Assembly (NCBI RefSeq): GCF_026151205.1
Contig: NC_087079.1
Coordinates: 680,001-744,000, forward strand
Direction of reading: 5' to 3'
DNA: 64,000 nucleotides
Source of the DNA: Bolinopsis microptera
Lineage: Eukaryota > Ctenophora > Tentaculata > Lobata > Bolinopsidae
Numbering within the stretch: position 1 is the first letter of the stretch; each line of letters begins with the position of its first letter. The notes beneath the pieces are model-generated. The model searched no databases. It saw nothing but the letters and a program-made list of their open reading frames with translations, and was not told where the DNA came from. The translations under genes and the position numbers were made by a program. This document shows, in pieces, positions 12,201-56,000 of this stretch.

Positions 12201-15200
12201 TGGGACCATTGTTTGTGAAATTAGAAATACTACACGAATGTATATCGTAGCCTGTTCTAAATATTTAGCTACAGTCGAGTTAGCTACAGTCGAAAATAAG
12301 AATAGTTGGGCTAAGAAGTTTTGAATGAGAAATACCAAGAGAAGGAACATCACAAAATACAACTTGTAAAAGCAACAAACCTTAGATTTAACTGAGGCTA
12401 GTTTCTGTGCTTCGTGAGGTTCGCCGTGCAGCGGACAGTTGCACGTGCAGCGCCGAATCTCGTGCGACAGCGCGTTTGGCGTCGTGCCAGTTCCATGCAG
12501 GAACTCAATAAAACGCTCTAGATCTTGAACCTGAAATTTGAGAGCTGAGAAAATGCGTTGTATTTGTACGTTAGAAGAATCTAAGGATGATATTATATAC
12601 GCTTTAAGTGAGACAAAATTGTAAAATTGTTGTATTTAAAATTGTCATATAAAATTGTTATATATATATAAAACTTGCTATATATATAAAACTTGCTATA
12701 TATAGCAAGTTTTAAGTTCCATTTTTTGTATTTATAGTAAGTTTTCAGTTCTACAAGTCTTTTAAGTAGACTTATCAGGTCTTTAGGATGTTCTTAGTAA
12801 CTACTTTGGATTTGTGTAAAGTTTGATAATAATAATAATATAGCAAGTATTTTGTGGCAGTGTGAACTGTGAAGCCATAATTACAAATTCGGGAAATTAG
12901 CGCGTAATTCTGACTTTCTAGTTATAATCTACGATTGACCTTATCTTGTTGTAACACTGCAGTCTGCAACCTATAACATAGTAGTGGTAGTAGGGACCCT
13001 GTCGCACCATCTTTCTGAGGGGTAAGAAACTGAGACTCCTCATAGTATCATGTTTCACAAGAATGCTCTAACTGTTGCCAGCACCAATCAGTGAGAACTG
13101 CTCCTTGAGAAATGGGGATTTCGTATTTTGAGTATGTTCAGGAATAGAATTCCCGAGAACATGGTTTCCACTTCCGAGTTCAGCACACCGCGAGGCTATA
13201 AAACCCACCCCAGCGTTAACTCACCAATCTTCTCTTTTTAACGATCTAGACGCAGACTTCCCTGACGATGATGAAGACTATGATTCTCGGCTTCGCTCTG
13301 CTGTTTGTGGTTATTTACACTTCTCCTATTCAAGAACACGACCTCAAATGCTGTCCCCAGGTTAGTCTAGCAGTATCCCCAGGTTAGTCTAGCAGTGTCC
13401 CCAGGTTAGTCTAGCAGTGTCCCCAGGTTAGTCTAGCAGTGTCCCCAGGTTAGTCTAGCAGTGTCCCCAGGTTAGTCTAGCAATGTCCCCAGGTTAGTCT
13501 AGCAGTGTCCCAGGTTAGTCTAGCAATGTCCCCAGGTTAGTCTAGCAGTGTCCCCAGGTTAGTCTAGCAATGTCCCCAGGTTAGTCTAGCAGTGTCCCAG
13601 GTTAGTCTAGAAGTGTCCCCAGGTTAGTCTAGCAGTGTCCCCAGGTTAGTCTAGCAATGTCCCCAGGTTAGTCTAGCAGTGTCCCCAGGTTAGTTTAGCA
13701 GTGTCCCCAGGTTAGTCTAGCAGCGTCCCAGGTTAGTCTAGCAGTGTCCCCAGGTTAGTCTAGCAGTGTCCCCAGGTTAGTCTAGCAGTGTCCCCAGGTT
13801 AGTCTAGCGGTGTCCCCAGGCTAGTCTAGCAGTGTCCCCAGGTTAGTCTAGCAGTGTCCCCAGGTTAGTCTAGCAGTGTCCCCAGGTTAGTCTAGTTGTG
13901 TCCCCAGGTTAGTCTAGCAGTGTCCCCAAGTTAGTCTAGCAATGTCCCCAGGTTAGTCTAGCAGTGTCCCAGGTTAGTCTAGCAGTGTCCCCAGGTTAGT
14001 CTAGCAGTGTCCCCAGGTTAGTCTAGTTGTGTCCCCAGGTTAGTCTAGCAGTGTCCCCAAGTTAGTCTAGCAATGTCCCCAGGTTAGTCTAGTTGTGTCC
14101 CCAGGTTAGTCTAGCAGTGTCCCCAAGTTAGTCTAGCAATGTCCCCAGGTTAGTCTAGCAGTGTCCCCAGGTTAGTCTAGCAGTGTCCCCAGGTTAGTCT
14201 AGCAGTGTCCCCAGGTTAGTCTAGCAGTGTCCCCAGGTTAGTCTAGCAGTGTCCCCAGGTTAGTCTAGCAGTGTCCCCATGTTAGTCTATCAGTGTCCCC
14301 AGGTTAGTCTAGCAGTGTCCCCAGGTTAGTCTAGCAGTGTCCCCAGGTTAGTTTAGCAGTGTCCCCAGGTTAGTCTAGCAGTGTCCCAGGTTAGTCTAGC
14401 AGTGTCCCCAGGTTAGTCTAGTTGTGTCCCCAGGTTAGTCTAGCAGTGTCCCCAGGTTAGTTTAGCAGTGTCCCCAGGTTAGTCTAGCAGTGTCCCAGGT
14501 TAGTCTAGCAGTGTCCCCAGGTTAGTCTAGCAGTGTCCTCAGGTTAGTCTAGCAGTGTCCCCAGGTTAGTCTAGCTGTGTCCCCAGGTTAGTCTAGCAGT
14601 GTCCCAGGTTAGTCTAGCAATGTCCCCAGGTTAGTCTAGCAGTGTCCCCAGGTTAGTCTAGCAGTGTCCCCAGGTTAGTCTAGCAGTGTCCCCAGGTTAG
14701 TCTAGCAGTGTCCCCAGGTTAGTCTAGTTGTGTCCCCAGGTTAATCTAGCATTTAGTTTTTATGTTTTATTTTGCTGCAGTGCTGTTAATATTCCATTTT
14801 TCAACTCTTAACATTATTTTTTCACCACTAGAAAATCAACAAAATAACCAATTCACTTTACAGGACCCAGCCTCGCTAAAATGCGGCGGTGATGGCTGCA
14901 ACGATTTCTGCTGTGGATGTGAGGGGTCGTGCAATACTGAAGTAGGAAACCTTGGTTGTGATTGGATCGAGTAAGTAAAGTACGGGTAACCAGGGTAACA
15001 TAGGTTACTGGGTAACCAGGGTAACACAGATCAGGGTAACCAGGGTAACCAGGGTAACATAAATCAGGGTAACCAGGGTAACATAGATCAGGACGCTAAC
15101 TTAAGATTGAGAATCCTTGCCATCAAATTAATTTACATGTTTTCATTTCAGATGCGCACTTGCAGTGGCTAAATGTATTGACTCTTGTTGTGAAGGTTCC

Positions 15201-53000: not shown

Positions 53001-56000
53001 GAAAGTCGGAGGTAAGACAGTGAGTTTTAGTAAAACTTACAAAATCAGGAAAGTCGGAGGTAAGGCAGTGAGTTTTAGTAAAACTTACAAAGTCAGGAAA
53101 GTCGGAGGTAAGGCAGTGAGTTTTAGTAAAACTTACAAAATCAGGAAAGTCGGAGGTAAGGCAGTGAGTTTTAGTAAAACTTACAAAGTCAGGAAAGTCG
53201 GAGGTAAGGCAGTGAGTTTTGGTAAAACTTACAAAGTCAGGAAAGTCGGAGGTAAGGCAGTGAGTTTTAGTAAAACTTACAAAGTCAGGAAAGTCGGAGG
53301 TAAGGCAGTGAGTTTTAGTAAAACTTACAAAATCAGGAAAGTCGGAGGTAAGACAGTGAGTTTTAGTAAAACTTACAAAGTCAGGAAAGTCGGAGGTAAG
53401 GCAGTGAGTTTTAGTAAAACTTACAAAGTCAGGAAAGTCGGAGGTAAGGCAGTGAGTTTTAGTAAAACTTACAAAATCAGGAAAGTCGGAGGTAAGGCAG
53501 TGAGTTTTAGTAAAACTTACAAAGTCAGGAAAGTCGGAGGTAAGGCAGTGAGTTTTAGTAAAACTTACAAAATCAGGAAAGTCGGAGGTAAGGCAGTGAG
53601 TTTTAGTAAAACTTACAAAGTCAGGAAAGTCGGAGGTAAGGCAGTGAGTTTTAGTAAAACTTACAAAGTCAGGAAAGTCGGAGGTAAGGCAGTGAGTTTT
53701 AGTAAAACTTACAAAGTCAGGAAAGTCGGAGGTAAGGCAGTGAGTTTTAGTAAAACTTACAAAGTCAGGAAAGTCGGAGGTAAGACAGTGAGTTTTAGTA
53801 AAACTTACAAAGTCAGGAAAGTCGGAGGTAAGGCAGTGAGTTTTAGTAAAACTTACAAAGTCAGGAAAGTCGGAGGTAAGGCAGTGAGTTTTGGTAAAAC
53901 TTACAAAGTCAGGAAAGTCGGAGGTAAGGCAGTGAGTTTTAGTAAAACTTACAAAGTCAGGAAAGTCGGAGGTAAGGCAGTGAGTTTTGGTAAAACTTAC
54001 AAAGTCAGGAAAGTCGGAGGTAAGGCAGTGAGTTTTGGTAAAACTTACAAAGTCAGGAAAGTCGGAGGTAAGGCAGTGAGTTTTGGTAAAACTTACAAAG
54101 TCAGGAAAGTCGGAGGTAAGACAGTGAGTTTTGGTAAAACTTACAAAGTCAGGATAGTCGGAGGTAAGGCAGTGAGTTTTGGTAAAACTTACAAAGTCAG
54201 GAAAGTCGGAGGTAAGGCAGTGAGTTTTAGTAAAACTTACAAAGTCAGGAAAGTCGGAGGTAAGACAGTGAGTTTTAGTAAAACTTACAAAGTCAGGAAA
54301 GTCGGAGGTAAGGCAGTGAGTTTTGGTAAAACTTACAAAGTCAGGAAAGTTGGAGGTAAGACAGTGAGTTTTGGTCAGATACAGGATGTTGTAAGAGTCA
54401 TTCAGTTCTTCTCCTATGAACCTCTGTATCTTCTCCTGTTGAGGTTCTTAATGATCAGCTGGTACGTGTTATAAAAAGGAAACAATAATTTTGTAAGTAA
54501 AGAAATTTGTAGATAAATCAGAGTACGGAGTCCTCGACTTCGGTTGCATGACGTACTCTATTTTGTTAAAAATAGTTTAAAACTATAAATTCTCCGTATC
54601 TTACCACAGGAATATTGAGGAAGTTGTCGACAGTAAACTCCGCAACATTCAGTGTAGCTTCCCTCCCCCCCGCCACCACTATTCTCCTCTTCAACCTCGT
54701 ACCTCTTCATACTGCTCACAATTATCTCCTTCTTGTAGTACTGCTCCCAGGTCCGCTTGATATGCCCCACAATCTGCTCTCTGTTCTCATAGGAAGAGAT
54801 AAACAGATCCACTCTCCCCCGCTCGAAGGTCTTCAGGTTCTTGTAGTACCCCATAGACAGCACGTAACTACCACGGTGGATCTCAGCAAAAAGGGTAATT
54901 CCCTGGATGAACCTGATCCGGATCTGCTGTACTACGCTGTATCGCGGTGTGAGAGGGGGGTGTCTTACGAAGCAAGGTGGAGGCCACCTAACAAAGTCCT
55001 CCTCCAACACATAGAGGAAGTTATCAGTCATCACTAGACACCGGAAGTAGCAAGTCTCCATGATCCGGACTGAAACGCAGTTTATTTTCTGGAGATCCTG
55101 AATTCTGAGCACTCTTTTGAGGAGCCTGATGTCAGTATCTTCCTCTGTAAAGATGATGTCAGAGGGGGGGATATTCTGGGTATCCAGTCTGCTGGCCAGA
55201 GTCTCCAGGAACATCTCAATGTCTTGTGAGTTGTACCCGATCAGGGAGATGGTTGTCTCCGGGCTCCCGTAAGGGTTACCGTCTTCCTTGAACTCAATCC
55301 TAACAGTGTGCTCGAAGTAGCTCATCAAGACCTGCCTTATACTCGACATCTTCTCGCGGTGTAATATTGAGAATGTGCACGATTCGTCCGTAAGGATTTG
55401 AGCTAGAATATCCTGGTTAAGATGTAACAAATCCTGGTTTTCTATCTTTATGACGAGAACTTCTGATTGAGTGATAGCTAGGACGACTGGTAGAGGCACA
55501 TCAGCTTTGCAGTATCTGAAACAGTGGGATGGGAATGAGTAGAACTCTTCGTTCAGAGCATCCTCTACAGCAGCAACAACAATCCTATCACTCGCCAGTT
55601 TGTTGAGTTCTTCCGGTGGCTCTGGTTCTCGAATATCCTTCATCTTCGTAACCAGGAGATACAGATGTGCTGTATCATGGAGAAACAACTGTGAGTACAC
55701 TCTCGGGGTCTCCTCATCAAACTTCTTGATAGAAATCTGATCTCCTATCAGATCACAGGACTCGATATCGACAGAATACAAGCTCCACGTCATCTTCCCT
55801 CCCCGGGGTTTAACCTCGACAAGGTGGGGCCTGTACGGTGAGGAGGGTAGAAGTGCCATTACATAGAGTTCATTGTCTCTGTAGACACTGAAGTTTGGTT
55901 GAAGTTCGTGGAAAGAGAGACTTGAGTATCTATTAACCAGATCTTCTATTTTCTCGTCTATGTTGTAGACCTCATTCGGAACAATATGGAAGGGCACGGA

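Follow-up and report, generated by a model that had tools for sequence, protein, structure and literature searches.

How does the end of an exon, together with its splice site, come to be repeated tens of times in tandem, and which of the copies then serves in splicing? The question is raised by a 64-kb stretch of the genome of the ctenophore Bolinopsis microptera (assembly GCF_026151205.1, contig NC_087079.1, positions 680,001 to 744,000; hereafter the window), in which a gene for a cysteine-rich peptide, a gene labelled RUNDC1 and a gene for nischarin carry tandem arrays on their exon–intron borders. Arrays of this kind also span exon borders elsewhere in the genome. They are minisatellites of the type described in amphioxus as mirages, and they probably arose from ordinary tandem duplications whose units happened to straddle a border, did no harm and subsequently expanded into the intron.

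Anatomy of the junction arrays

Tandem arrays with a period of at least 6 bp occupy about 30% of the window (50 merged arrays, 19.2 kb). Seven of these arrays lie on exon–intron borders (Table 1), four at donors and three at acceptors, so that 5′ and 3′ borders are both affected. In all seven, the unit holds the end of an exon and the adjoining intron, with an exon overlap of 9–58 bp; the exon-side end of the array lies within the exon and takes in less than one period of it, and the copies run into the intron. The copies score nearly equally as splice sites. A sequence-only reading of the window had described five large arrays, each containing an exon end with its donor or acceptor in roughly 25–95 copies, and Tandem Repeats Finder (TRF) located all five where they had been placed, with 25.5–95.5 copies and with the junction words in most of them. 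To these are added a 24-bp donor array, a 36-bp acceptor array and a two-copy acceptor duplication. The nischarin gene alone accounts for five junction arrays and the two-copy duplication, and one of its introns is arrayed at both ends, with the 54-bp unit at the donor and the 60-bp unit at the acceptor. The 39-bp array includes three 42-bp units. In the two-copy duplication, both 13-bp copies are separated by a 28-bp GTTACTATGGTAAC-type insert (51818–51845; TRF row 51816–51845), and it is possible that this arrangement represents the founding, first-step stage of a junction array.

Table 1. Arrays and a duplication at exon–intron borders in the window. Array coordinates, periods and copy numbers are from TRF; a slash marks the border; intact junction words are given relative to the approximate number of copies.
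Feature	Copies	Position	Strand	Junction	Exon	Exon inside (bp)	Intact junction words
22-bp array	64.0	13352..14751	+	donor CCCCAG/GTTAGT	exon 1 of cysteine-rich peptide gene; intron begins at 13361	9	58/~64
39-bp array	95.5	15866..19604	-	acceptor TTGTTCAG/GAGTGATGA	labelled RUNDC1 in the sequence-only reading (name not confirmed); exon start 15879	14	93/~96
24-bp array	6.6	44889..45047	-	donor AGCAG/GTTACC	nischarin 45179-45036	12	5/~8
60-bp array	51.0	45492..48552	-	acceptor TGTCAG/GTAGTG	nischarin 45549-45440	58	48/~51
54-bp array	25.5	49262..50639	-	donor TATCAG/GTACTA	nischarin 50692-50617	23	26/~26
36-bp array	2.8	51393..51491	-	acceptor TTCCAG/GTTATAG	nischarin 51403-51279	11	3/~3
Two-copy acceptor duplication	2	51805..51858	-	13-bp direct repeat across acceptor CCCTCAG/GTT	nischarin 51807-51726		
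48-bp array	29.0	52979..54372	-	donor GACTTT/GTAAGT	nischarin 54435-54337	36	24/~29

The position of the arrays was compared with a chance model in which the arrays in the 21 introns modelled for these genes were collapsed to one unit and the units were then placed randomly. Seven of the 19 arrays span a junction as against 1.97 expected (P = 0.0015, a value inflated by the fact that the window was chosen for this feature). The choice of the window for its junction arrays means that checks outside it are needed. Moreover, with the arrays collapsed the introns are short, 16 of the 21 measuring 68–270 bp, so that a duplication of 20–60 bp would often reach a border.

Support for the exon borders

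The putative identity of the nischarin gene is supported by Pfam, since the spliced piece matches the PH_NISCH_C profile (E = 1.8e-8; residues 184–267 over 90 profile positions). This match spans the junction at residues 192/193, at whose intron the 54- and 60-bp arrays lie, and an inserted repeat could not be accommodated in it; the PH domain would thus break if the copies were translated. Across the eight C-terminal nischarin exons, the phases, read by eye, are consistent at seven junctions. A homologue search with the spliced nischarin piece found none, and an Rfam search gave nothing at gathering score. In Pfam, neither the RUNDC1-labelled pieces nor the cysteine-rich gene had any match; of the gene names proposed by the sequence-only reading, nischarin was thus upheld and RUNDC1 was not confirmed. 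The exon ends of these two genes are drawn from open frames, splice consensus and phase, and one intron end of the RUNDC1-labelled gene is approximate.

Some further observations concern the gene models. The phases are mismatched at the 5.8-kb nischarin intron (57076–62841), within which exons may be hidden. On the opposite strand inside this modelled intron, an open frame at 61524–62540 resembles a rhodopsin-type seven-transmembrane receptor (7.7e-6, below the Pfam cut-off). The long nischarin exon seems, by eye, to shift frame at a G/C homopolymer at about 54650–54680, before the donor at 54604, possibly owing to an assembly error. A coding exon of the RUNDC1-labelled gene contains a 36-bp in-frame repeat of 2.9 copies (21234–21338), in which the peptide RDTPRHSVSGMS is repeated.

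Recurrence elsewhere in the genome

That the pattern would recur outside the window is borne out by 18 sampled loci (nine distinct arrays among 100 listed rows, five from a second listing, and four clumps, one from a third listing and three from a fourth, of which one holds two copies only). Eight of the 18 span an exon border, with 17–58 bp of exon at a threshold of at least 5 bp. They comprise a WD40 gene (L045), L049, a homeodomain gene (L050), the acceptor of a copine exon (L064), a dynein heavy chain gene (L066) and three sushi exons (L062, L065 and L067). The arrays of L044 and L047 barely enter the exon, taking in 4 and 2 bp of it, respectively, the border of L047 being assigned by eye only; L043 and L051 are possible cases, L046 and L055 are undecided, and L048, L060, L061 and L063 (4/18) lie away from borders. 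Pfam E values below 0.05 were obtained for L045, L050, L062, L064, L065 and L066, with L050 alone passing Pfam's own cut-off. The coding score exceeded the threshold, set at the 95th percentile among 1045 GT sites taken as background, in eight of the 14 scored donor-type arrays (L044, L045, L049, L050, L062, L065, L066 and L067). Arrays of a reversed donor word served as a control. Five were present among the listed rows and four were examined, the one with a 9-bp period being left out; none of the four spans a border by at least 5 bp. One of them touches a dynein acceptor, with an overlap of 4 bp into the exon; the others are situated within a coding exon, some 30 bp ahead of a probable acceptor and in a repeat, respectively.

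In the myosin genes, none of 42 resolved junctions (21 resolved introns in four regions) is spanned by an array. Nine small arrays lie internally in the same introns. Eight further exon gaps were left out as unresolved, and these contain three unscored arrays that touch a hit end or lie near one (L039 7305–7366, L040 7283–7380 and L042 8580–8651). The 30 myosin exon loci include five short arrays in contact with a hit end or at most 12 bp from one, none being demonstrated across a junction.

Apart from their bearing on recurrence, two of the sampled cases deserve mention. The same 32-bp array, with similar flanks, is present at L060 (C1:37.6 kb) and L061 (C1:761.8 kb), 725 kb apart, and constitutes a dispersed family. 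L051 has a possible short exon between a 33-bp acceptor-type array of three copies (73–173) and a 27-bp donor-type array of 42 copies (216–1377); the coding score of this possible exon is under the threshold.

Which copy is used

The homeobox gene at L050 (C10:4506.8 kb) is informative in this respect. Its exon 1 encodes homeodomain residues 1–45 and is followed by a 35-bp donor array of 21.5 copies; the next exon begins VWFQNRRAKCKK. The unit length of 35 bp is not a multiple of three; use of the later donors would put the next exon out of frame or add residues to the recognition helix, and an unbroken domain would be obtained from the exon-proximal donor only. We infer that the exon-proximal copy still supplies the splice site; in the homeobox gene this is argued from the reading frame, and at the other borders it would hold by extension. 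Because the splice sites of the copies in the window arrays are nearly equal in score, position rather than strength should decide the choice. The spliceosome would then take the exon-proximal copy via pairing across the exon, which is also what exon definition predicts. With tens of near-identical donors or acceptors lined up naturally in conserved genes, the window and its genome make the choice of the spliceosome among equal sites testable.

Origin of the arrays

The origin that we favour, and consider probable, can be set out in steps, of which the mechanism of duplication is, like the choice of splice site, inferred. A short tandem duplication, sometimes with filler, would cross an exon–intron border by chance. 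It would be harmless, since the copy touching the exon keeps supplying the splice site. Slippage or unequal exchange would then multiply the extra copies into the intron, which is free of constraint, the exon side of the array being held by selection on the exon. Duplications within exons would mostly be removed by selection and those across borders tolerated. The exon share of the unit spans 0.05–0.97 of the period (18 arrays; Kolmogorov–Smirnov test versus uniform, P = 0.45), which indicates that the initial breaks did not fall at a fixed position, AG/GT, and fits ordinary duplication. In addition, the dynein heavy chain exon that bears a donor array at L066 also contains a 171-bp duplication (560–886; 1.9 copies, 100% by TRF), and L070 contains a 33-bp coding repeat. 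Tandem duplications thus occur within exons too, and the process is not restricted to junctions. Taken together, the spread of the exon share and the duplications within exons favour ordinary tandem duplication filtered by selection.

Other observations weigh against this origin, namely that all five arrays of at least 20 copies span a junction as against 0.67 expected (P = 2.5e-5, inflated in the same manner as above), together with an excess of tandem donor words and an excess of synonymous changes, both considered below. The splice sites might themselves be preferred start points, a splicing- or transcription-coupled process (R-loops, splicing-coupled breaks or a preference of breaks for donor-like sequence) beginning the duplications. 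This would imply that exon–intron borders are preferred birthplaces of minisatellites, the spliceosome always taking the exon-proximal copy, and that ladders of identical sites are present at perhaps a few percent of splice donors, a figure that is an extrapolation and not a count. In whole-genome word counts, which cover an assembly of 265 Mb in 232 contigs, AGGTRAGT occurs 19232 times with 2610 tandem triples (gaps 10–40) and its reversed word 15615 times with 197 triples, a 10.8-fold excess of triples per occurrence; CAGGTAAGT occurs 2462 times with 444 triples (gaps 9–39) and its reversed word 1212 times with none. The triples are clumped, so that distinct arrays are far fewer, and the contrast relies on one control word per motif, but the excess of AGGTRAGT triples may be larger than blind seeding followed by selection would give. 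On the forward strand of contig 1 (0–0.89 Mb), clumped donor words pass the exon-end coding score in four of four cases versus five of 20 single words (P = 0.012; 20 of 21 single words were scored, one of the five that pass looks like a long interspersed nuclear element (LINE), and two of the 20 lie in or beside another array). However, sushi exons lying close together (C1:401–441 kb) account for three of the four clumps, and when this neighbourhood is counted once the difference falls to P = 0.09; for all scored donor-type arrays (8/14 versus 5/20) it stands at P = 0.06. The unspanned myosin junctions and the spread of the exon share across the period likewise speak against preferred start points. 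As regards the splice-driven mechanism put forward as one possibility in the sequence-only reading, the donor-word excess, with its single control word, fits a preference for junctions and leaves room for a splice-linked start; the spread of the exon share fits ordinary duplication. We regard a start at splice sites as unlikely.

Alternatively, the arrays may be exon, the extra copies entering the messenger RNA and being translated as in-frame peptide repeats. Six of the seven window periods (39, 60, 54, 48, 36 and 24) are multiples of three (P = 0.007), and the exon frame is open across the 54- and 48-bp arrays and across the 39-bp array except for its last ~100 bp. In the exon-derived part of the window units, 14 of 20 changes are synonymous in the exon frame as against an expected fraction of about 0.26, a count from which the intron-derived positions are left out, as are artefactual types, seven of them created in the 39-bp array by the indels of its 42-bp units and three in the 60-bp array by its 59-bp units; in the intron-derived part, two of seven are synonymous. 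Such an excess is unexpected of neutral intron copies. Elsewhere, by contrast, the period by TRF is divisible by three at two of ten exon-border loci (54 and 51 bp), the 51-bp dynein locus being irregular with donors 57, 51 and 55 bp apart, and five of 29 changes are synonymous (four first-codon types of L065 were dropped, 2/7 being used in place of 3/11), which differs from the window at P = 0.0003. Furthermore, two 59-bp units break the frame of the 60-bp array, a 22-bp period is incapable of keeping frame, and translated copies would disrupt two domains, the homeodomain and the PH domain. Translation of the arrays is accordingly improbable in our judgement. A phase-neutral ladder, with periods chosen as multiples of three, was rejected as a rule because of the discrepancy between the window and the other loci, and the synonymous excess that would suit translated copies was not repeated elsewhere. 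The synonymous contrast is unexplained; the window arrays may be partly in messenger RNA or may have been re-seeded from the functional exon. Finally, a short GTAACTATGGTAAC- or GTTACTATGGTTAC-type element could have inserted at the borders and duplicated its target, element and target then being multiplied together. Related filler is present in the 39-, 54- and 24-bp units (three of seven arrays) and in the stage at 51805–51858, and the 20-mer GTAACTATGGTAACTAGTAG has 1427 occurrences in the genome, often with a 21-bp spacing among the matches listed (e.g. 44488–44567). However, the 22-, 60-, 48- and 36-bp units are without such filler, as are the units listed for arrays elsewhere, and among these arrays only the 54-bp unit and the 51816–51845 insert have the strict palindromic core. 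A flanking target duplication is clear in one case only (51805–51858), terminal structure and transposase not having been searched for. We consider a mobile origin improbable.

Other features of the window

The 18-bp unit TGATGACGTCACGTGGTA is repeated 25 times at positions 43558–44003, just past the point where the nischarin coding region ends on its 3′ side. This unit forms what we take to be a ladder of cAMP response element-like (TGACGTCA) and CACGTG motifs. A long open frame at 39773–41749 carries a reverse transcriptase domain (RVT_1, 3.6e-36) and is LINE-like. A large G-rich array with a 42-bp unit (28890–31829, ~66 copies), in which the length of the poly-G is variable, lies outside the gene models.

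Comparison with known systems

The sequence-only reading knew of no described repeat class defined by the copying of exon–intron borders, but mirages are already known in amphioxus. As far as the text available from the two papers goes, they have been reported in Adh3, TnC, the globin genes BflGb6 and BflGb9 and PGBD5, as minisatellite-like duplications over an exon–intron border at either end of the intron, many copies of which keep AG/GT and which reportedly leave regular splicing undisturbed (PMC3087553, PMC3902484). According to the same portions, BflGb6 haplotypes have six and three units of 150–160 bp, and Adh3 units measure 10–72 bp (PMC3087553, PMC3902484). The window arrays likewise span the border, affect the donor or the acceptor and keep AG/GT in many copies. 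They differ from the amphioxus cases, as described in those portions, in the 25–95 copies of the five large arrays and in their reach, with several borders affected in a single gene, one intron arrayed at both ends and several genes involved. The window arrays thus belong to the mirage kind and are unusual in size and reach. A literature search in open-licence papers found no large mirages outside amphioxus. The arrays described here show that mirages can attain far higher copy numbers and affect several genes within the same genome.

Internal tandem repeats at exon–intron borders are also described in human segmental duplications, where, in the portion of the source at hand, they appear as variable minisatellites that may form new introns (PMC2812944). 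Unlike the window arrays, they average four copies of 30 bp in young paralogues and are, in that portion, without ladders of tens of splice sites. A further parallel is offered by the model in which introns are gained when AG/GT proto-splice sites are duplicated in tandem (Rogers 1989; Gao and Lynch 2009, as cited in the available part of PMC3087553). The affected introns of the window differ from this model, as there summarized, in that they hold as many as 95 copies; none of them was shown to be newly gained. In the model, so far as that part describes it, as in the window arrays, a duplicated AG/GT segment yields paired splice sites, and the ladders of B. microptera allow one to ask how often border-spanning duplications are the raw material for new introns.

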